Both the position numbers and the translations under genes were made by a program. A stretch of DNA of 42,729 nucleotides. It comes from Caulobacteraceae bacterium (lineage in GTDB: Bacteria; Pseudomonadota; Alphaproteobacteria; Caulobacterales; Caulobacteraceae). Positions 24,769 through 37,905 of this stretch are shown here, piece after piece (the first letter of the stretch is position 1; every line of letters begins with the position of its first letter). The notes beneath the pieces were generated by a model. That model saw only the letters and a program-made list of their open reading frames with translations, made no database searches and was not told the DNA's origin. Where the stretch lies: NCBI GenBank assembly GCA_027452265.1, contig DAIDGR010000093.1, positions 1 through 42,729 of the forward strand, given 5' to 3'.

Positions 24769-27015
24769 ATGGACGATTTGAGCCCGATCGACCCTGACGA
24801 GGGCGGCCGGATCCTGGACGAACCTTTCAGCGAGGCGCTGTCGCGGCGCTACCTCGCCTATGCTCTGTCGACCATTACCCAGAGGGCCCTGCCGGACGTC
24901 CGGGATGGACTCAAGCCCGTGCACCGGCGGCTTCTTTACGCCATGCGCCTGCTGCGGCTCGACCCTCAGGCCTCGGCCAAGAAGTCGGCCCGGGTGGTGG
25001 GCGACGTCATCGGCAAGTATCACCCTCACGGGGATGTGGCCGTCTATGACGCCCTGGTCCGCCTCGCCCAAGATTTCGCCCAGCGCTACCCGCTGATCGA
25101 TGGCCAGGGCAACTTTGGCAATATCGACGGCGATAACGCCGCGGCCATGAGGTACACCGAGTGCCGCCTGACCGAAGCCGCCCGCCTGCTGCTGGACGGG
25201 ATCGATGAGGACGCCGTCGACCTTCGCGCCACCTATGACGGCGAGGATGAAGAACCCGTGGTCCTTCCGGCCGGGTTCCCCAATCTGCTGGCCAACGGGT
25301 CTTCGGGCATTGCCGTGGGCATGGCCACTTCGATCCCGCCGCACAATGCCGGTGAGCTGATCGATGCGTGCCTCGCCCTGATCAAGGACCCCGACCTCTC
25401 TACCTCTGACCTCCTGGCCCTGGCGCCGGGACCGGACTTCCCCACCGGCGGGGTGATCGTCGAGCCTCGCGCCTCATTGGCGGAGGTCTATGAGACCGGG
25501 CGGGGCGGGGTCCGGCTGCGCGCCCGCTGGGAGAAGGAGGATGCCGGCCGGGGACTCTGGCGCATCGTCGTCACCGAGGTGCCCTATCAGGTCAAGAAGG
25601 CGGACCTGGTGGAGCAGCTCGCCAGCCTGCTGGAGGATAAGAAGGTCCCGCTTCTGGGGGACGTCCGCGACGAGTCCGCGGAGGACGTTCGCCTGGTTCT
25701 GGAGCCGCGTTCGCGCACGGTCGAGCCCGAGGTCTTGATGGAGAGCCTGTTCAAGCTGTCCGACCTCGAGGTCCGGGTCCCCGTGAACATGAATGTGTTG
25801 AACGCCCGGGGCGCGCCCGAGGTCATGGGGCTGAAGGCGGCGCTAAGGGCCTATCTCGACCACCGGCGCGAAGTGGTGGTGCGCCGGGCCCAGTTCCGTC
25901 TCGCCCGGATCGAGCGGCGCCTGCATGTCCTGGACGGCCTCCTGATCGTCTTCCTCAACCTCGACGAGGTGATTCGGATCGTCCGTTACGAGGACGAGCC
26001 GAGGGTTCGGCTGATCGCGGCCTTCGCCCTTTCGGAGGTCCAGGCCGACGCCGTGCTCGACACGCGGCTCAGGCAACTGGCCAAGCTCGAAGAAGCGCAG
26101 ATCCGCGCCGAGCACACCCAGCTGTCCCTGGAGCGTGACGAGCTAAACGCCGTGGTCGCCACGCCGCAGAAGCAGTGGAGGCGGGTGGCGGAGGGGCTGG
26201 CCGAGGCGCGCAAACTCCTGGGCGACAAGCCGGGGCTTGGCCCGCGGCGTTCGAGCTTCGGCGAGGCCCCCAACATCGACCTGGCGCAGGCGGTGGAGGC
26301 GCGGGTGGTGCGCGAGGCGATCACCGTGATCGTCTCCGAGCGCGGTTGGATTCGCGCCGCCAAGGGGCGGGTCGAGGACCCGGCCTCACTCACCTTCAAG
26401 GAAGGCGATCGTCTGGCCTTCGCCGTCGCCGCCGAGACCACCGATCGGCTGATGCTTTTCGCCTCCGATGGACGGGTCTTTACCCTGCCGTGCGACAAGC
26501 TCCCCTCGGCGCGCGGCCAGGGTGAGCCCCTGCGCCTGATGATCGAACTCGGCGAACAGGAGCGAGTCCTGAGTGTGTTCGCCCATCGCCCCGGAGCGCG
26601 GCGCATCGTGGCCTCGGCGGCGGGCTATGGGTTCATCTTCGAGGAGAGCGAGGCGATCGCCGCCAAGCGTTCGGGTAAGCAGGTGCTCAATCTCTCGGAC
26701 GGGACGGCCGCGGCGGTGTGCCTGGAGGTGAAGGGCGATCAGGTGGCGGTGATCGGCGACAACGGCAAGATCCTGATCTTTTCCGTGGATGAACTGCCGG
26801 TGATGGCCCGCGGCAAGGGCGTCAAATTGCAGTCCTATCGCGAGGGGGGGCTTCGGGACGCCATGACCTTCGGGGCGGAGGAGGGCGCGAGCTGGGTCGA
26901 CAGCGGGGGGCGCACCCGGTCGTGGCCCGAATGGCGCGACTGGGTCGGACGACGCGGATCGGCGGGAAAGGCCGCGCCGCGCGGCTTTGCGGCCAACCGT
27001 CGCTTCCGCCCGTGA
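24769..27015 (+). CDS. parC: DNA topoisomerase IV subunit A
   Basis: A 748-residue type IIA topoisomerase subunit that, with ParE, unlinks daughter chromosomes. The N-terminal breakage-reunion domain has [32 protein letters not shown] and the catalytic tyrosine Y129 in [10 protein letters not shown]. The shorter C-terminal beta-propeller lacks a GyrA box, which fits ParC rather than GyrA. The residue matching the quinolone-determining serine (S80 in E. coli ParC) is V90; the acidic residue four positions later is kept as D94. It is divergent from the efflux operon. A decatenation enzyme about 8 kb from a candidate dif site is noteworthy but may be chance. Confidence 0.95.
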
Positions 27016-29925: not shown

Positions 29926-30588
29926 TTAGCGGACCGCGCCGTAGCGCTGGGCCTTCATCCGCTCAAAAAACTCTGTCCATTGCGCCTCACTCAGCCTTGA
30001 AGGCTCACCGAGCTGGCGGGCCAGGACATATTGCCGGCACATGATCTCCAGCCTGTGGGCCAGGTTCACCGCCGCATTGAGGCTCCGTGCGCGGCAGATC
30101 ATGCCGTGATTGCCCAGCAGGCAGGCCGTTCGCTCACGCAGGGCCAGGGCCGCGTCCCGCGCCAGGGTCTCGCCGCCGAAGGTGGAGTAGGGGACGCAGG
30201 GGACGTCCGAACCGCCAAACAGGCCCACCAGATAGTGAAACCCGGGCAGGGGCTGGTTATGGCACGAAACGGCCACGCAGTAGTCGGAATGGGTGTGGAC
30301 CACCGCGGCGGCGTCCGGATGTTCGGCATAAACCGCCGCGTGCATGCGCCACTCGCTGGAGGGGGTCTGGCCGGCGGGCCACGTTCCGTCGCCGCGCACC
30401 AAGACCAGGGCGTCTTCGGTCAGGGTATCGGCGGAGGCGCCAGTGGGCGAAATCAGCATGCCCTCGCCCAGCCGACAACTCAGATTGCCCGAGGACAGCT
30501 CGTTGAGCTTGAGAGCCTCGGTCCTCCGGTAGGCGGCGACCAACTCGCGTCTCAGCCGCGTCTCGTCGCTATCGCTCATTCCGCTCAC
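29926..30588 (-). CDS. otnC: Class II aldolase/adducin protein, 3-oxo-tetronate 4-phosphate decarboxylase-like
   Basis: A 220-residue zinc aldolase of the FucA/AraD family. The zinc site is formed by H98 and H100 in VVHTHSDYC and a third histidine in LLGNHGMI; E79 in SSEWRMH is the catalytic acid. The phosphate-binding loop is in NELSSGNLSCR and ISPTGAS. It lies 9 bp downstream of a 3-oxo-tetronate kinase gene on the same strand, the OtnK-OtnC pairing. In that pathway OtnC decarboxylates 3-oxo-tetronate 4-phosphate to dihydroxyacetone phosphate. The name rests on this pairing; the fold alone would only say class II aldolase. Confidence 0.83.
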   Translation of the reverse strand: MSGMSDSDETRLRRELVAAYRRTEALKLNELSSGNLSCRLGEGMLISPTGASADTLTEDALVLVRGDGTWPAGQTPSSEWRMHAAVYAEHPDAAAVVHTHSDYCVAVSCHNQPLPGFHYLVGLFGGSDVPCVPYSTFGGETLARDAALALRERTACLLGNHGMICRARSLNAAVNLAHRLEIMCRQYVLARQLGEPSRLSEAQWTEFFERMKAQRYGAVR

Positions 30589-30597
30589 GATCCCCCC

Positions 30598-31887
30598 TTA
30601 CAATCCCCGCTCAAACGCCTCGGGCGCCGCATCGGCCTCGGCAAGGCGCGCAAGGGCCAGATCGAAGAAGCTCGCATCGCCCACACTGCCCGCCTTGACC
30701 ACGAACGACATCGCCACGGGAGCGGCCGTCCGGCAATAACCGCCATACAGGTCATCATACGCGGCGACGTCCAGCCGCGCGACGCCGAGCGCGTTCAGGA
30801 CCTCGCCGGACGATTCCCCGCCGGCGATGACGAACTTGCGTACGCCCAGCCCGAACAGCTCGCGCGCGAGGCGTCCCAAGACCGCATCGGCCCGGGCCGC
30901 GGCGCCGTCCCGGCCAAACCGCGCCTGCGCCGCGCGGACCGCCTCGGGGCCCGCCGAGGTTGCGACGCCGACCGGTCCCTCCATCAGGCGCGGCCCCGCC
31001 CACGCTCGCACCCGCGTCACCAGATCGGGGTCATCGCCGTCGCGGGCCAAATCAATCCGCCAAACGGGGTGGCGCGCCTCAAACGCGTCGAGCTGAGCCA
31101 GGGTCTGGGGCGCGCAGCTTCCCGCCAGAACAGCGGCCGCGCCAGGGGAGGGGCCCAGAAGCCGGGGCGGCGAGAGGGGCGGCGGCGCTCCGCCTCGCCA
31201 CGCCCGGGCCAGGGCCGGCGCCAGGCTGTCCGCCCCGGTGATGAGCGGAAGCTCGAGGCCCAAGGCCGCAACGCGCGTCAGATCCTCCTCGTTCACCGTA
31301 TCCACGATCTGAAAGGGCCCCTTGGCGCCGGTCAGCCGCGCTCTGGCGGCCGCGGGATCGCGCAGGATCTTGTGCGGAATCAGCCCCACCTTGATCTGCG
31401 TCTGGGATTGAAGGACCTCCACCAGATCGGAGCTCCAGGCCGGCGTCGCGGGGTCGTTGCGCTTGAACGACTCGGCCAATGGGGTGGCGCGCACGAAAAG
31501 GCGCCCCTGATAGACCGTGACGTCGCGCTCCAGATAGGCGGGGCAGAAGAGGGTCGCAGGGGCCCCGGTCGCCTCAAGCAGGGCTTCGGCGATAGGCCCG
31601 ATATTTCCGTCTCGTCGGGAGTCGAAGAGGGCGCTGTACTTGGCGTAGAGCCGCCGCGCCCCGATACGGGCGAAGGCCGCCGCCGCCTGGCGGGCCTCTT
31701 CGCGCGCCGCCTCGGGCGGGATCAGACGAATCTTGCGCGCCAGGACCACCGCTTCGGCGCCCGGCGCCGCCAAGTCCAGGGCCTCGGCCGACAGGACCAG
31801 AGGGCAGGCGACGCCCTCGCGCACCATCAGGCTGGCCACCATCATGCCGCCGGTCAGATCATCGGCCAGGACACCCAGTTCGATCAT
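30598..31887 (-). CDS. otnK: 3-oxo-tetronate kinase-like protein (four-carbon acid sugar kinase)
   Basis: A 429-residue protein of the DUF1537 acid-sugar kinase family that phosphorylates 3-oxo-tetronates. The N-terminal ELGVLADDLTGGMMVASLMV carries the acidic substrate motif, here DDLTGG where DDFTGA/S is usual. The segment YAKYSALFDSRRDGNIGPIAEALLE and then CPAYLERDVTVYQGRLFV match the OtnK branch. The C-terminal nucleotide-binding half has VIAGGESSGEVLNALGV. ATG 31887 is chosen; an ATG six codons upstream is also possible. Isomerase (otnI) and dehydrogenase (ltnD) genes that usually go with this pair are not in the window. Confidence 0.85.
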   Translation of the reverse strand: MIELGVLADDLTGGMMVASLMVREGVACPLVLSAEALDLAAPGAEAVVLARKIRLIPPEAAREEARQAAAAFARIGARRLYAKYSALFDSRRDGNIGPIAEALLEATGAPATLFCPAYLERDVTVYQGRLFVRATPLAESFKRNDPATPAWSSDLVEVLQSQTQIKVGLIPHKILRDPAAARARLTGAKGPFQIVDTVNEEDLTRVAALGLELPLITGADSLAPALARAWRGGAPPPLSPPRLLGPSPGAAAVLAGSCAPQTLAQLDAFEARHPVWRIDLARDGDDPDLVTRVRAWAGPRLMEGPVGVATSAGPEAVRAAQARFGRDGAAARADAVLGRLARELFGLGVRKFVIAGGESSGEVLNALGVARLDVAAYDDLYGGYCRTAAPVAMSFVVKAGSVGDASFFDLALARLAEADAAPEAFERGL

Positions 31888-31947
31888 GCCCGCGAGGTCG
31901 CACAATCCGCGGGGAGCGCCTAGCCCGGCTTCGCGCTAGAAGACCGC

Positions 31948-32628
31948 ATGACCGTCACCTCGCACGCCATCCTCTTCGATCTTGACGGAACCCTTGTGGA
32001 TTCAGAGCCCGGGATCCGGGCCAGCTATCGTGCGGTGATGCGCGAGCTGGGGCATGACCCCGATCGGCTCGATCTTACTGGACTGATCGGGCCGCCGCTG
32101 GAGGACGGCATGGCCAAGGTCCTGGCGCGTGAGGGCGACACCCGCGTCGCCGAGGGTGTGAGGCTCTATCGCGAGCACTATGGCCGGGAAGGCCTATTCG
32201 AAACCCGGCTCTATCCAGGGATCGTGGACATGCTGGACAGGCTGGCCAAGGATCACGCCCGCCTGTTCGTCGCCACGTCCAAGCAAACCGCCTTCGCCAG
32301 ACGAATCCTTGAGCATCTGGGTCTTGCGCCGCGCTTCGTGGCCATTCAGGGCGCCGAGCCGGGCGGGGTTGAGCGCAAGGCCGACGTGATCGGGGCCTTG
32401 CTCGCCGCGCACGACCTCCCAGAGCCTCTGACCTTGATGGTCGGCGACCGTCACCACGACGTGGATGGCGCTCGGGCGCACGGCTTGGCGACCATCGGCG
32501 TTCTTTGGGGATATGGCGCACGTGAGGAATTGGCTGGCGCGCAATGGCTGGTGGATCGCCCGGCCGAGCTTTCAGTCCTGGTGACCCGGATTTTGGCGGG
32601 GGGCGTGGACCCGGTGCGCGGGGCCTAG
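31948..32628 (+). CDS. HAD-family hydrolase, phosphoglycolate phosphatase-like
   Basis: A 226-residue haloacid-dehalogenase-superfamily phosphatase. Motif I is LFDLDGTLVDS (nucleophile D11, acid D13), motif II is FVATSKQ, the lysine of motif III is in ERKADVI, and motif IV is LMVGDRHHDVDGARAHGL. The cap domain between motifs I and II is of the Gph/PGM type. It divergently faces the otnK gene (60 bp apart), and its end lies 24 bp from the insertion element. Substrate cannot be told; phosphoglycolate or another sugar phosphate is likely. Confidence 0.88.
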   Translation: MTVTSHAILFDLDGTLVDSEPGIRASYRAVMRELGHDPDRLDLTGLIGPPLEDGMAKVLAREGDTRVAEGVRLYREHYGREGLFETRLYPGIVDMLDRLAKDHARLFVATSKQTAFARRILEHLGLAPRFVAIQGAEPGGVERKADVIGALLAAHDLPEPLTLMVGDRHHDVDGARAHGLATIGVLWGYGAREELAGAQWLVDRPAELSVLVTRILAGGVDPVRGA

Positions 32629-32646: not shown

Positions 32647-32652
32647 TCCAAA
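32647..32652. repeat. Target-site duplication of the insertion element, left copy
   Basis: TCCAAA directly precedes the TGT left end of the element. The identical hexamer directly follows its ACA right end at 35104-35109. Confidence 0.8.
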
Positions 32653-32704
32653 TGTCTACGCCGGTTAGAGATGTCGCGGTTTGAACAAAATAGAGATGTC
32701 AGTC
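32653..32704 (+). repeat. Left terminal end of the insertion element
   Basis: The tip is TGTCTACGCCGGTTAGAG followed by ATGTC at 32671, and a second TAGAGATGTCAGTC lies at 32691-32704. Spacing of the ATGTC sites matches the right end within one base. The match to the right end is confined to these sites rather than being one continuous inverted repeat. Confidence 0.75.
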
Positions 32705-32860
32705 ACCGGCCCATCAGGAGGGCGGCGGGCGGGCGCGTAGCCTTCACATCGCGCAGAGCCCGACCGCCGGCCGACGCACGGGCGGGGCAGCTTCGTCTTT
32801 GTTTTCCGAGTGCGCGTTAGCGCGCGAGGCACGTAGAGCCCGCGCCATCAGCGTGATTGC

Positions 32861-33649
32861 CTAGTATACGCTCTCGCGCGGCTTACCCGGTTCAAGATCG
32901 ATTGCCAGAATCCGCGCCTCGACGAAGCCAAACAGCCCGTAGGCTGGGTCGAGTTCAACCCTGAAACCTTGATCTGCGGTGCGGCTGAGCGCCAGTCCGT
33001 AGATGGCGTTCTGTTCGTTGAAATCGTTCAGCTCAAGGTTCACGACGCCCTCCAGCCGAAAGGACACCAGGGCATGTTTGTTCAAAACAAAGAAGCCTTT
33101 GGCGTCGACCTCGGACGTCATCTGGAATGCATGAATCTTGATGCTGCATCGGGCCATTTTCCGATCCAGCGACAATTCCAGCACTTCGGCGTCGTGAAAG
33201 GATGGCACGCGGCCGTCAAACCATTCCAATAGCTGCTGCCCGCCTGGGATCTCGCCGAGCAGTTCGGCCGTGGTGACAGGAAGCGGTGCGTCAGCCTCCC
33301 CCTGCTCATCCTCCCGCATTCTTGCGTAGAGCTCACGCTCAGCCTGGTTGATCTGCGACGGGTCACGATCGATCTCACGTTTGCTAGCCGGCAGATGGTG
33401 ACGTTTGTCAGCGTAGTTATAGAAAAGCGTCCCGTGGATTCCGTCCGCCTTGCTCTTGTGAATCGGACGGAGCCATAGGTTGTTGAGCACCTCCGCGACA
33501 TGGCTCTCGTGGTGTCGAGCTATGAAGTCCTCAATTATCTCAATGTCTTGGCCGGGGTTGGGGAACAGATACGAAAACTCGCTCTCCGTCGCCCTGAAGA
33601 TGCTGAGGGTCGCGTTGTCCGCCCCATCCCGGATCTGAACATTTTTCAA
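32861..33649 (-). CDS. Passenger gene of the insertion element: unknown N-terminal domain plus Imm50-like immunity domain
   Basis: A 262-residue protein encoded inside the element. The C-terminal half (about residues 140-255) has the layout of the Imm50 immunity family: VPSFHDAEVLELSLDR, a strand-rich centre, VNLELNDFNEQNAIYGLAL and LDPAYGLFGFVEARILAIDL. Imm50 proteins neutralise toxins of polymorphic toxin systems. The N-terminal half (NVQIRDGADNATLSIFRATE, later LFYNYADKRHHLPASKREID) I do not recognise. TTG 33649 is chosen because GGGAG lies 6 nt upstream; the frame is open to a GTG at 33727 that overlaps the transposase end. No toxin gene is present. The gene is lower in GC than its surroundings and presumably travels with the element. 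The Imm50 call is by eye. Confidence 0.7.
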   Translation of the reverse strand: MKNVQIRDGADNATLSIFRATESEFSYLFPNPGQDIEIIEDFIARHHESHVAEVLNNLWLRPIHKSKADGIHGTLFYNYADKRHHLPASKREIDRDPSQINQAERELYARMREDEQGEADAPLPVTTAELLGEIPGGQQLLEWFDGRVPSFHDAEVLELSLDRKMARCSIKIHAFQMTSEVDAKGFFVLNKHALVSFRLEGVVNLELNDFNEQNAIYGLALSRTADQGFRVELDPAYGLFGFVEARILAIDLEPGKPRESVY

Positions 33650-33716
33650 GCGCGACTCCCACGACCACAGTTCGCACGCATATCGCGAATGCTTGCGAGC
33701 CGCTATCCGGCGACGA

Positions 33717-35015
33717 TCACCCGACACCGAACATGTGCCCGCTCTGATCCCGACGCTTGGGCGCCCTGATGCTGCGCTTGTCGGGTTCGTGCATGTCCTG
33801 GCTCTGCCGGATCAGGTCGAGCAACGATCCCAGCCGCTTGTTCTCGGTGATGGCGGCCTGGTTGACCTTCCTGATCTTGTCGAAGGTGCGATAGGGGAGG
33901 TCGATCCCGTCGTGCCGGATCACTAGGCGCCCATCGGGATAGTCGTAGACGGTGACGCGCTTGCCGATCGCCGCCTGGGCGGCCTCGGTCGGCTCCAGAA
34001 TGAACATCACCTTGTCGTATTGCAGGGGCAGCGCCTGGGACAGGGTGCGCTCGACGCGCCAGTTGAAGGCCTCATCGAGATTATCGCGGTTGGTCATGAG
34101 TCTGTGCAGATCCTTGGGGTTGGCGGCGGGCTTGGCGAAACGGGCGTTGTAGTCAGCGAGAAAGCCGGGGAGGAAGGCGTTGCCTTCGGCAATACTGCCC
34201 ACGCCGGCGAGCCGAAGTTCCTTCACCAGCCGGTCCTGCAAGGTCTTGTTGGCGCGTTCGACACGGCCCTTGGCCTGGCTGGAGTTGGCGCAGATGATCT
34301 CGATGCTGAGGTCGTGCAGGGCGCGGCCGAACTGGGTCATGCCGTCCGTGGTCGCGCCGGCGGCCCGGTTCACGCGGAACACCGAATGCTTGTCGCTGTA
34401 GAAGGCGATCGGCTTGCCGTGGGTCTCAAGATAGGACCGCGTCGCCGAGAAATAGGAAAAGGTCGACTCCGTCTGGGCGAACTGCAGGTGCATGAGCCGG
34501 CTGGTGGCGTCGTCGATGAACACCAGCAGGGTGCACTTGGGGCCACGGTCCTCGAACCAGCGATGCTCGGAGCCGTCGATCTGGACGAGCTCGCCGAGGC
34601 AGTCGCGCCGGTCGCGCGGCTGGTGAACCTTGCCGCGACGCCTCTTGCGGGTCTGCCAAAGACCATCGGCCACCATCCAGGCTCGCAGCGTCTCGCGGGA
34701 GATAGCCAGGTCATGCAACTCACGCAGCTTCTCGGCGGCCAGCGTGGGTCCGAAGTCGGCGTACCGCTCCTTGACCAGGGCCATGGCCGTCAGCCGCACA
34801 TCATCGGGCGTCTTGCGGTTGCTTGGTCGGCCGCGCTTCCTGGAGATCAAGCCATCGGCGCCGCGGAGGCGGTAGGCCTTCAGCAGTCGCCAGACCTGTC
34901 GCTCAGTGAGCCCGAGGACCTGGGCGGCGGCGCGTACCGGCATCCGTTCGTGATCGACGTCTCGCAGAATCTCGAACTTGGTCAGCTCCGCATCGCTCAT
35001 GATCCGCACCGGCAT
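33717..35015 (-). CDS. ISNCY (IS1202 group) DDE transposase
   Basis: A 432-residue transposase. An N-terminal IS481-like helix-turn-helix (RAAAQVLGLTERQVWRLLKA) is followed by SRKRGRPSNRK and YADFGPTLAAEKL. The integrase core has the DDE triad, numbered from the longer ATG 35024 start: D150 in LVQIDGSEHRWFEDRGP, D211 in FYSDKHSVFRVN, and E256 in AKGRVERANKTLQDRLVKEL. These phrases are typical of proteins annotated as ISNCY family. The whole frame is open, so the gene looks functional. ATG 35015 has GGGAG nine bases upstream and is preferred over ATG 35024. The promoter would lie in the 88 bp to the right end of the element. Confidence 0.92.
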   Translation of the reverse strand: MPVRIMSDAELTKFEILRDVDHERMPVRAAAQVLGLTERQVWRLLKAYRLRGADGLISRKRGRPSNRKTPDDVRLTAMALVKERYADFGPTLAAEKLRELHDLAISRETLRAWMVADGLWQTRKRRRGKVHQPRDRRDCLGELVQIDGSEHRWFEDRGPKCTLLVFIDDATSRLMHLQFAQTESTFSYFSATRSYLETHGKPIAFYSDKHSVFRVNRAAGATTDGMTQFGRALHDLSIEIICANSSQAKGRVERANKTLQDRLVKELRLAGVGSIAEGNAFLPGFLADYNARFAKPAANPKDLHRLMTNRDNLDEAFNWRVERTLSQALPLQYDKVMFILEPTEAAQAAIGKRVTVYDYPDGRLVIRHDGIDLPYRTFDKIRKVNQAAITENKRLGSLLDLIRQSQDMHEPDKRSIRAPKRRDQSGHMFGVG

Positions 35016-35052
35016 GATGGTCATCTCCCATGGACCAGCCGATGGTCGGGGA

Positions 35053-35103
35053 GACTGACGTCTCTAACTTGCTCGGCACTGACATTTGCATTTTGCTGCT
35101 ACA
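35053..35103 (-). repeat. Right terminal end of the insertion element
   Basis: Read inward on the minus strand the tip is TGTAGCAGCAAAATGCAA, then ATGTC (35085-35081) and TAGAGACGTCAGTC (35066-35053). The two inner sites are at 18 and 42 nt from the tip, against 18 and 43 nt at the left end. Confidence 0.75.
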
Positions 35104-35109
35104 TCCAAA
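35104..35109. repeat. Target-site duplication of the insertion element, right copy
   Basis: TCCAAA directly after the ACA end, identical to 32647-32652. Its last base is also the first base of the dif-like site. Confidence 0.8.
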
Positions 35110-35136
35110 ATGCGCCTAAGATATATTATCAGAAAT
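35109..35136 (+). other. dif: Candidate chromosomal dif (XerC/XerD recombination) site
   Basis: A 28-bp sequence with the dif layout: 11-bp left arm AATGCGCCTAA, 6-bp centre GATATA, 11-bp right arm TTATCAGAAAT. Against the E. coli dif sequence as I remember it, 19 of 28 bases agree, including TAA and TTAT next to the centre and the AAAT end. It is an AT-rich island in GC-rich DNA, lies between convergent genes, and sits where the direction of genes and of KOPS-like octamers reverses. An IS1202-type element, a group I recall as inserting beside dif or pdif sites, has landed next to its XerC side. XerC and XerD would resolve chromosome dimers here, with FtsK activating the reaction at the division septum. 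Confidence 0.6.
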
Positions 35137-35178: not shown

Positions 35179-36069
35179 TTATGTCCCCCGCGTCTCGGCC
35201 AGCAGCGCCGCGCGCACCGTATCGAGCTCGGCGCGACGGGCCTTCGAGGTCTTGGGAAACTGGGGATGCAGCTCACGCAAGGCGTCCAGCACGATTTGCG
35301 AGACGATCAGTCGCGCATTGGGCTTGTCGTCCGCCGGAACGATAAACCACGGCGCCCCGGCCGTGCTCGTGGCGTCCAGGCAGGCCTCATAGGCCTCCAT
35401 ATAGCTGTCCCAGAACCGCCGCTCTTCGATGTCGGCCATCGAGAACTTCCAGTTCTTTTCAGGCTCGTCGATGCGGCTCAAGAACCGCCGGCGTTGTTCG
35501 TCCTTCGACAAATGCAGGAAAATCTTGACGATTTTTGTCCCGTTGCGGGTCAGGTGCGCCTCGAAGTCGCAGATCGAACGATAGCGGTCGCGCCAGACAT
35601 CAGCGGCGCCCGCCTCGCGTCCGGGAACCCCTTCGGAGAGGAGCAGTTCGGGATGCACCCGAACGATCAGCACCTCCTCATAATAGGAGCGATTGAACAC
35701 GCCGATGCGGCCCCGCTCCGGCAGTTTCGTCGCGGCGCGCCATAGAAAGTCCCGGGTCAGCTCGGACTCGGTGGGATGTTTGAAGCTGGTGACCTCGCAT
35801 CCCTGCGGATTGAGGCCGGACATGACATGGGCGATGGCCCCGTCCTTGCCAGCCGCGTCCATCGCTTGAAAAATCACCAGCAAGGCATGGGCGTTGGCCG
35901 CGTAATGCACCCGTTGCAGGCGGCTGAGGGCCTTAACATGTCGCTGTAGCTGACGTCGGTAGTCGCCCCTGGAGGCGTAGAACGGCGCAATCAGGCTGTC
36001 TTGGTCGGCAAGCCGGGGGCGCGAGCCCGGCGCGACGCGAAATCGCCCGCTCTCGATCATCCCCGACAT
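35179..36069 (-). CDS. ppk2: Polyphosphate kinase 2 family protein (class III-like)
   Basis: A 296-residue PPK2 that uses polyphosphate to phosphorylate nucleotides, or the reverse. The Walker A region is [13 protein letters not shown] (residues 68-80) and the Walker B/lid region is [20 protein letters not shown] (122-141). FNRS followed by YEEV is the form seen in class III enzymes, which can act on both AMP and ADP. The [35 protein letters not shown] block is also characteristic. The ATG at 36069 has GGGGAGG about 8 nt upstream. It ends 42 bp from the dif-like site. Nucleotide preference is inferred, not shown. Confidence 0.92.
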
Positions 36070-36372: not shown

Positions 36373-37905
36373 TCAGCCTTCCTCGGTGGCCGTCTTATCC
36401 AGATGCCGGGCCGCGACGGCTCGGAGAGCCGCCCGTCGATCGGGCGCCATCTTGTCCAAGGTGCGATAGGTCATCGCCAGGCGCAGATTTCCGCGAAACC
36501 GCGTTTCGTGGCGCATGAAGAAGTCCCAATAGAGCGCATCGAACGGACAGCCGGCGTCCGAACCCTTGGGCGCCTTGGCGTGGACGCACCCGGCGCAGTA
36601 GTCGCTCATACGCCCGATATAGGCGCTCGAAGCGGCATAGGGCTTGGAGCTCATCGAGCCGCCGTCCGCGAACAGCGCCATGCCATGGACATTGGGCAGC
36701 TCGACCCACTCAAAGGCGTCCGCGAAGACGGCGAGAAACCAGGTCTCAAGCTCCCCTGGCGCGACCCCGGCCAGGAGCGCGTAGTTGCCAAGCACCATCA
36801 GCCGCTGAATGTGGTGGGCGTAGGCATGGCGATGAATGTCACGCACGGTCTCGGCAAGACAGCGCATGGAGGTCTCGCCGGTCCAATAGAAGTCCGGCAG
36901 CCGCCGTGTGGCCCCAAGCTCATTGCTTTGGGCGAAAGCGCGACCGCCGCGCCAGTAGACGCCGCGGACAAACTCGCGCCAACCCAGGATCTGTCGGATG
37001 AAGCCCTCGACGGCGTTGAGCGGCGCCCTCCCCTCCCGCCAGGCCGCTTCCGCGGCGGCGCACACCTCCGACGCCGTGAGCAGTCCGAGGTTGAGATAGG
37101 GCGAGATGAGGCCGTGACAGAGAAAGGGCGCCCCTGCCTTCATGGCGTCCTGGTAGTCGCCAAACCCGCCGATCGCCCTGGCCAGGAAGTCGTCAAGCGC
37201 CTCAAGGGCGTCGGCGCGCGTCACGCCCCACGCGAAGCTCTCAACCTCGCCGAAATGGTCTGGGAAACGCGCAGCCGTAAGGTCCATGACCTCCCGGGTG
37301 ATCGCATCGGGCGAAAACCGCCGGCGAGAGGGCGGTCTTAGATCCTTGGGCCATCGCTTGCGGTTCTCGGCGTCGAAATTCCAGGCCCCGCCCACCGGCG
37401 CCCCGCCATCCATGAGGACGCCCGTCCTTTGCCGCATATGCCGATAGAACATCTCCATGCGCAGCTGGCGCCGAGAGCCGGCCCAGCGCGTGAAATCGGC
37501 GCGGGAGATCAAAAAGCGTCGGTCATCCAGAATATCGACCGGAACCCCCAGGCGATCGGGCCAGGCCGTCATTTCGTCCATGAGGCGAACTTCGCCGGGC
37601 TCTGTGACCATCAGCCGCCGGGCGTTGTGTCGGGCGATCGCGCGCGCCGCCTCCCCTGCGAGATCGCCGGTATTGGCGGGATCGTCGAGCGTCACGTAGT
37701 CGACGCGCAGACCGCGCGCGCGCAACTCCCCGGCGAAGTGGCGCATCGCCGAAAGGACCAGCACGATCTTCTGCTTGTGGTGCGCGACATAGGTCGTTTC
37801 GGCCGGGGCCTCGACCATGAGGACCACGTCCCCTGGCGCGACCACCTCCAAAACACCGACATCATGGGTGAGCTGGTCACCCAAAACGAGACGCAGAGTC
37901 GTCAT
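36373..37905 (-). CDS. phrB: Iron-sulfur bacterial photolyase/cryptochrome (FeS-BCP, PhrB type)
   Basis: A 510-residue flavoprotein of the FeS-BCP group, which repairs (6-4) photoproducts with light or acts as a photoreceptor. The N-terminal Rossmann domain starts TTLRLVLGDQLTHD. The FAD-binding helical domain contains FIRQILGWREFVRGVYW and HAYAHHIQRLMVLGNYALL. Four cysteines expected to hold a 4Fe-4S cluster are at C349, C437, C440 and C453, each one residue from the positions I recall for Agrobacterium PhrB (350, 438, 441, 454). Length is the same. It is the gene just downstream of the cold-shock gene on the same strand, 66 bp apart. Confidence 0.93.
   Translation of the reverse strand: MTTLRLVLGDQLTHDVGVLEVVAPGDVVLMVEAPAETTYVAHHKQKIVLVLSAMRHFAGELRARGLRVDYVTLDDPANTGDLAGEAARAIARHNARRLMVTEPGEVRLMDEMTAWPDRLGVPVDILDDRRFLISRADFTRWAGSRRQLRMEMFYRHMRQRTGVLMDGGAPVGGAWNFDAENRKRWPKDLRPPSRRRFSPDAITREVMDLTAARFPDHFGEVESFAWGVTRADALEALDDFLARAIGGFGDYQDAMKAGAPFLCHGLISPYLNLGLLTASEVCAAAEAAWREGRAPLNAVEGFIRQILGWREFVRGVYWRGGRAFAQSNELGATRRLPDFYWTGETSMRCLAETVRDIHRHAYAHHIQRLMVLGNYALLAGVAPGELETWFLAVFADAFEWVELPNVHGMALFADGGSMSSKPYAASSAYIGRMSDYCAGCVHAKAPKGSDAGCPFDALYWDFFMRHETRFRGNLRLAMTYRTLDKMAPDRRAALRAVAARHLDKTATEEG

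Follow-up and report, generated by a model that had tools for sequence, protein, structure and literature searches.

A probable chromosomal dif site in Caulobacteraceae and the cargo-bearing IS1202-family transposon inserted beside it

An AT-rich stretch of 28 bases between two convergent genes of a Caulobacteraceae bacterium, with a transposon standing five nucleotides away, raises two linked questions: whether the 28-mer is the chromosomal dif of this organism, and whether the transposon came to its place by recognising it. Sequence searches easily miss dif sites that have diverged, and a transposon that keeps a fixed distance from them offers an independent footprint of probable Xer binding. 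The window analysed here, that is the whole stretch of 42,729 nucleotides, is an entire contig (C93; DAIDGR010000093.1) of a 117-contig draft assembly (GCA_027452265.1) of 2.73 Mb that is 98.88% complete.

RESULTS

The 28-mer is a single-copy, intergenic dif-like site

The sequence at 35109..35136 (+) reads AATGCGCCTAA-GATATA-TTATCAGAAAT. Alignment with E. coli dif identifies AATGCGCCTAA (35109..35119, +) as the XerC arm; it is followed by the central hexamer GATATA (35120..35125, +) and the XerD arm TTATCAGAAAT (35126..35136, +), and 6 of 11 positions are complementary between the arms. The two 11-bp arms around a 6-bp centre described in the first-pass annotation are indeed present and match the architecture of proteobacterial dif, while its count of 19 bases shared with E. 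coli dif has to be corrected to 20 of 28 by alignment with the E. coli sequence verified against a table in PMC2731167. The site is intergenic (between 32628 and 35179), and its GC content is 28.6% versus about 0.67 for the window.

The same annotation had called for a genome-wide search for further arm matches. Allowing up to three mismatches, the 28-mer matches only itself in its own genome, and a looser dif pattern of the family likewise gives a single match there. Both arms together match once in the window versus never in 100 shuffles. Among 98 other relatives, 23 have one match each to the arms at three mismatches or fewer, and a reversed control pattern has none; the looser pattern occurs in 237 of 298 genomes (own included), 22 of the 298 giving a hit for its reversed control. 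A score matrix built from 24 oriented dif sites of the family gives 35–44 to those same sites from which it was made, and the best score away from dif in the relative G026 is 13.3 (800 kb sampled, both strands). Two Xer genes were found in the source genome, with profile matches of 289 and 216 bits; both fall below the cut-off of the XerD model (329.6), which was exceeded in only 4 of 14 control genomes.

Single copy, recurrence in the family, low GC content, intergenic position and the two Xer genes all support the earlier reading of a candidate chromosomal dif. To judge from its sequence, the 28-mer is very probably the chromosomal dif of this bacterium, and presumably an active one. It should be noted that the C. 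crescentus dif entry in Table 1 of PMC2731167, AAGATCGACTTTGTAATTTATGTAAAGT, seems to differ from the sites found here in Caulobacteraceae; a recheck may be worthwhile.

Strand polarity changes around the site

The 28-mer lies, as had been annotated, between convergent genes with Pfam matches for a HAD-family phosphatase (31948..32628, +) and ppk2 (35179..36069, −), and the transposase gene sits between these two. Genes of a chromosomal kind occur nearby, namely for topoisomerase IV/gyrase A, DNA polymerase III delta' and thymidylate kinase. The topoisomerase IV/gyrase A subunit gene is at 24769-27015, about 8 kb from dif, and a gene for a deoxyribodipyrimidine photolyase-related protein (36373-37905) adjoins ppk2.

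Gene directions had been described as leftward for all nine genes on the right and mostly rightward on the left. To the right, all seven Pfam-matched genes do read leftward, but we did not recover nine genes, and our crude gene heuristic lists one rightward frame as well. To the left, directions are mixed: the heuristic, which is wrong in places, gives 16 rightward and 11 leftward frames. Left of the HAD gene it called an antisense frame as a gene where Pfam matches show otherwise, two leftward genes with strong matches (29926-30588 and 30598-31905) lying just ahead of HAD.

A skew change near 35.1 kb, another expectation of the annotation, is borne out in part. GC skew, which is weak in the window, changes sign from +0.022 left of the element to −0.012 right of dif; however, the cumulative skew of the window peaks at 27.6 kb, 7.5 kb left of dif, and not at dif itself. 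The octamer GGGNAGGG, which we take to be the FtsK-orienting motif (KOPS) of E. coli, also reverses: its plus-to-minus counts are 16:2 for the left side and 1:5 for the right side (Fisher p 0.0027). The same holds for further G/A-rich octamers, four of 56 arrangements reversing more strongly than GGGNAGGG, so the reversal reflects replichore polarity and not KOPS as such. In the single-contig relative G026, where skew is also weak, dif is at 1,323,423 and the cumulative skew maximum, sampled in 40 stretches of 20 kb, falls in the stretch 1,330-1,350 kb beside it; octamer counts within 500 kb of this dif are 32:6 versus 24:35.

A transposon with cargo stands five nucleotides from the XerC arm

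The element next to the site is a 2451-bp transposon of the IS1202 family (ISAjo2 type; 32653..35103, −) with TGT at 32653 and ACA at 35103 as outer bases and with the 5' end of its transposase gene next to dif. It is flanked by a target duplication TCCAAA, the distal copy at 32647..32652 and the dif-side copy at 35104..35109. The last base of the latter is the first base of the 28-mer, which leaves a gap of 5 nt between the transposon end and the XerC arm. The distal transposon end, TGTCTACGCCGGTTAGAGATGTCGCG (32653..32678, +), is found with 26 of 26 bases in loci of four relatives (G054, G023, G004, G027). The dif-side end (35078..35103, −) agrees with it, ungapped, at 12 of these 26 outermost bases; sub-terminal repeats agree better (80% over 25 nt and 83% over 18 nt). 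The element is of the published IS1202/ISAjo2 'dif-hunter' kind, in the published orientation. The annotated picture of an AT-rich island carrying an insertion element was right as to composition, intergenic position and the presence of a transposase gene, but 'interrupted' is better read as a targeted insertion that left dif intact. An empty site flanked by HAD and ppk2 was not found: HAD matched at E 1e-30 in 6 of 15 same-genus genomes, G005 (see below) not among them, and none of these six matches lies on the contig bearing that genome's dif.

The transposase (435 aa; 33717..35024, −) scores 495.8 bits on the ISNCY_2 model NF033594 of NCBIfam (cut-off 250), and alignment gives the residues D150, D211, E256 and Q263, the last at the E+7 position. 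Its structural model (mean pLDDT 73.6) resembles IstA, TnsB and MuA at Foldseek E values from 6e-14 to 6e-8, with low TM-scores of 0.28–0.42 by query length; a profile search against solved structures gave no sequence-level match, so that these matches are by fold alone. The only other gene of the element is a passenger ORF of 288 aa (32861..33727, −), which makes the element a transporter IS. No family matched the passenger above its cut-off in the profile libraries searched; its C-terminal half is weakly like Imm50 (24.1 bits, below the cut-off of 27.1), and its single-sequence model has a mean pLDDT of 32.9, too low to use. The libraries searched gave no match to TnsA, TnsC, TnsD or TnsE in the element.

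Different cargo genes occupy the same place in related transposons. In the three relatives' elements whose distal end was found beyond the transposase, the cargo is a serine beta-lactamase-family protein (PF00144; G001, L128 2294-3727), a DUF4279 protein (G023, L127 279-695) and an unknown 157-aa protein (G054, L124 8352-8822).

Related transposons keep their distance from dif

At a threshold of 1e-20, the transposase has matches in 27 of 298 genomes, own included. Thirty of the 36 matches listed were examined as loci, the window among them, and 7 of these are cut by contig ends. In 18 of the 23 testable loci a dif-like site lies 5 nt (15 loci) or 6 nt (3 loci) from the element; the former were recognised as ACA, 5 nt and a dif-like site, the latter all come from f5, a sister family in the same order, and some of the 18 are transposase remnants. 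Of the five loci without an adjacent dif, one is an inner copy of a tandem array, one is a truncated remnant, and three hold distant transposases (31-35% identity). Inspection by eye revealed a transposon end at the dif flank in 6 of the 12 same-genus genomes viewed, own included (G000, G001, G002, G005, G011, G012).

Two of the relatives deserve mention. G005 carries the identical 28-mer, flanked on the same side by a PPK2 of 69% identity, but its element at that position is a different one (56% identity over the 68 residues available before the contig ends, with a 5-nt gap TCAAA). In G054 (L124; G054:C90, 5348-10234) three elements stand in tandem at one dif, with CGCAT recurring at all three junctions seen. 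Successive insertions at a single base position next to dif would produce such a pattern. Separately, some contigs start a few bases ahead of dif (G043:C13:10, G160:C7:10, G160:C30:12), a pattern that would fit assemblies breaking off where a repeated transposon adjoins the site.

For a wider test we took the best 80 of 570 confirmed transposase places, at 71 of which at least 200 nt of upstream sequence was available, the other 9 being too short. A locus was called positive if a CTACA or TTACA end was followed, after 4-6 nt, by a dif-like palindrome scoring at least 9. Among these named loci 39 of 71 are dif-adjacent (31 at 5 nt, 8 at 6 nt), versus 1 of 1420 shuffled upstream sequences. The 32 loci below threshold include some with no recognised transposon end in range, some in which the end is followed by other sequence, and some with a degenerate site, for example Mesorhizobium loci that have an intact XerC arm only. 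In four of the latter (L259, L270, L230, L234) the XerC arm is 5-6 nt from the transposon and GTGTGGAAC or GACTGGAA replaces the XerD arm.

The target sites follow the host. Many rhizobial loci have TTATGGAAC(T/A)T, sphingomonads have TTATGTTAAAT or similar, and E. coli strain E69 has AGTGCGCATAATGTATATTATGTTAAAT. XerD arms at the targets vary as well (TTATCAGAAAT, TTATGGAACTT, TTGTCGCAAAT), and the inner arm letters AA-N6-TT are common to most recognised targets.

A divergent dif in the sister family f5

The sites that lie 6 nt from the three f5 transposases share the core ACAA-N6-TTGTCG, and the pattern CAAN6TTGTCGNAAA picks out a nearly fixed site common to many f5 genomes. Twenty such sites (L193-L212) give nnnnCGCACAA-TTTATA-TTGTCGCAAAT. 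They were chosen by their shared core, whose letters are thus partly selected for, but the unselected letters are also almost invariant: before CAA, G and C occur in 20 of 20 and A in 19 of 20, and the last T in 19 of 20. With one mismatch allowed, CGCACAAN6TTGTCGCAAAT is found in 48 of 62 f5 genomes (reversed control, 0), several of which have two or three copies, and the usual looser dif pattern is found in 7 of the 30 f5 genomes to which it was applied.

Two single-contig f5 genomes place the variant site near a change of skew. In G094 (site at 2,909.8 kb, C1:2909789-2909812) skew is +0.077 at 2,885-2,905 kb and −0.037 at 2,915-2,935 kb, flipping between the two stretches that flank the site. 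In G233 (site at 1,539.6 kb, C1:1539595-1539618) nine earlier stretches are all positive and are followed by −0.004 at 1,515-1,535 kb and −0.076 at 1,545-1,565 kb, which puts the flip somewhere within 1,380-1,545 kb. Octamer counts reverse from 11:2 to 0:10 in G094, the first seven stretches being excluded as beyond another sign change, and from 35:3 to 2:35 in G233, where the last stretch was excluded on the same ground.

It is likely, then, that the insertion footprints read out each host's dif, since the transposon would follow the Xer-bound site and not its letters, and that in f5 they expose a dif whose core has diverged to ACAA/TTGT (CGCACAA-N6-TTGTCGCAAAT), the two arms having changed in concert and related transposons having stayed with the site. 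Among the papers listed for the string or for dif with Hyphomonas, Parvularcula or Maricaulis, no report of this variant was found, although supplementary tables of PMC2731167 and PMC3025954 may hold it.

Two other loci merit a separate remark. G269 and G277 share, in different contexts, a nearly identical 1.7-kb segment (1704 of 1708 bases; L135 4094-5800, L136 4834-6540). The segment is bounded on the right by the transposon end, and its left boundary falls inside a second, inverted variant dif. A possible explanation is XerCD exchange of a dif module.

DISCUSSION

Position, spacing, orientation and target duplication of the element, the repeated use of the same base position by its relatives and the intact state of dif are direct observations. 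Taken as a whole, we are confident that 35109-35136 is the chromosomal dif and that the IS1202-family transposon was targeted to a position 5 nt outside its XerC arm, most likely via XerC or the XerCD–dif complex, dif acting as a reusable safe landing site. By homology, XerC and XerD, brought by FtsK, would bind the two arms and resolve chromosome dimers. The anatomy of the locus indicates that a transposon with a TnsB-like transposase inserted outside the XerC arm, duplicating TCCAAA and sparing dif. What the transposase recognises is most likely XerC or the XerCD–dif complex and not a fixed DNA sequence, because relatives keep the same distance from dif sites with differing arms; that the transposase contacts XerC has been proposed before (PMC10132070). 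Being intergenic, conserved and unharmed by the insertion, dif would be a safe place to land and, as the tandem array suggests, could be used again by later elements, with plasmid copies probably supplying the newcomers.

Could the 28-mer instead be a plasmid dif (pdif) or some other secondary dif, its replicon being integrated or separate, while the true terminus dif lies elsewhere? On plasmids, dif-hunter ISs are often found next to pdif sites (PMC10132070), and 4764 plasmid records contain a relative of the transposase at 1e-80. Against this stand the lack of any second match, strict or loose, in a nearly complete genome, neighbours of a chromosomal kind, with ppk2 flanking the identical site in G005, and the reversal of strand polarity around the 28-mer, and we regard a pdif as improbable. 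It is also true that 14.2% of dif sites are associated with IS, transposase or integrase genes (PMC2731167), so various kinds of mobile DNA collect in such a region, and an element might have reached it by chance or by a preference for AT-rich intergenic DNA, with dif and Xer playing no part. The fixed spacing and orientation in 18 of 23 loci, the excess of dif-adjacent named loci among the best 80 of 570 places over shuffled sequences, and the repeated insertion at one base position make such an origin extremely unlikely.

A more serious competitor concerns the mechanism and not the site: the transposase might read the arm DNA itself, XerC being dispensable. The shared inner letters AA-N6-TT speak for it. 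However, the nearly identical element of G269 and G277 stands beside two different sites, and the XerD arms at targets span the whole range from TTATCAGAAAT through TTATGGAACTT to TTGTCGCAAAT; direct reading of the arms therefore seems to us a minority possibility, though one of some weight. Recognition of XerC or XerCD–dif remains our preferred reading, and an element acting in this way can point to dif even in relatives whose sites look different. The tandem array lends itself to a simple test of the idea that dif can be landed on repeatedly and collects cargo genes.

The locus can be compared with three known systems. With E. coli XerCD/dif (Carnoy and Roten 2009, PMC2731167) it shares the 11-6-11 architecture, 20 of 28 bases, single copy, intergenic position, low GC content and two Xer genes. 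The difference is in the letters of the presumed Caulobacteraceae dif, which has CCTAA and TTATC(A/G)G where E. coli has CATAA and TTATGTT. Tn7, as described in PMC10132070, has in common with the element the TGT...ACA ends, repeated sub-terminal motifs, a TnsB-like fold and one preferred kind of chromosomal site, but the target here is dif and not attTn7, and the element has only its transposase and passenger genes, with no match to TnsA, C, D or E.

The closest likeness is to the ISAjo2 group, described by Harmer, Pong and Hall (2023, PMC10132070) as having a transposase of about 430-500 aa with Q at E+7, a duplication of 3-5 (6) bp and a position 5 bp from the XerC arm. The window element agrees in its 5-nt distance, the transposase start next to dif, the TGT...ACA ends, the short duplication and a DDE transposase with Q at E+7 and a TnsB-like fold. 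It departs from ISAjo2-type ISs of 1.5 kb by its length of 2451 bp and its passenger gene, features in which it resembles the transporter ISs ISRel10, ISKpn21 and ISKpn65, and from the group at large by a 6-bp duplication and weak outermost repeats; Caulobacteraceae do not appear as a host family in the tables of that paper. The same study left open whether loosely dif-like rhizobial targets are degenerate or of another consensus. The D arm TTATGGAACTT in its list is the D arm of the Agrobacterium chromosomal dif in PMC2731167, and it recurs in rhizobial named loci among the best 80 of 570 places, which bears on this question. Dif-targeting ISs are already published, and our well-supported finding is of an ordinary kind. 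Its additions are a Caulobacteraceae member with cargo, a tandem array, a variant dif, and the use of insertion footprints to find divergent dif sites.
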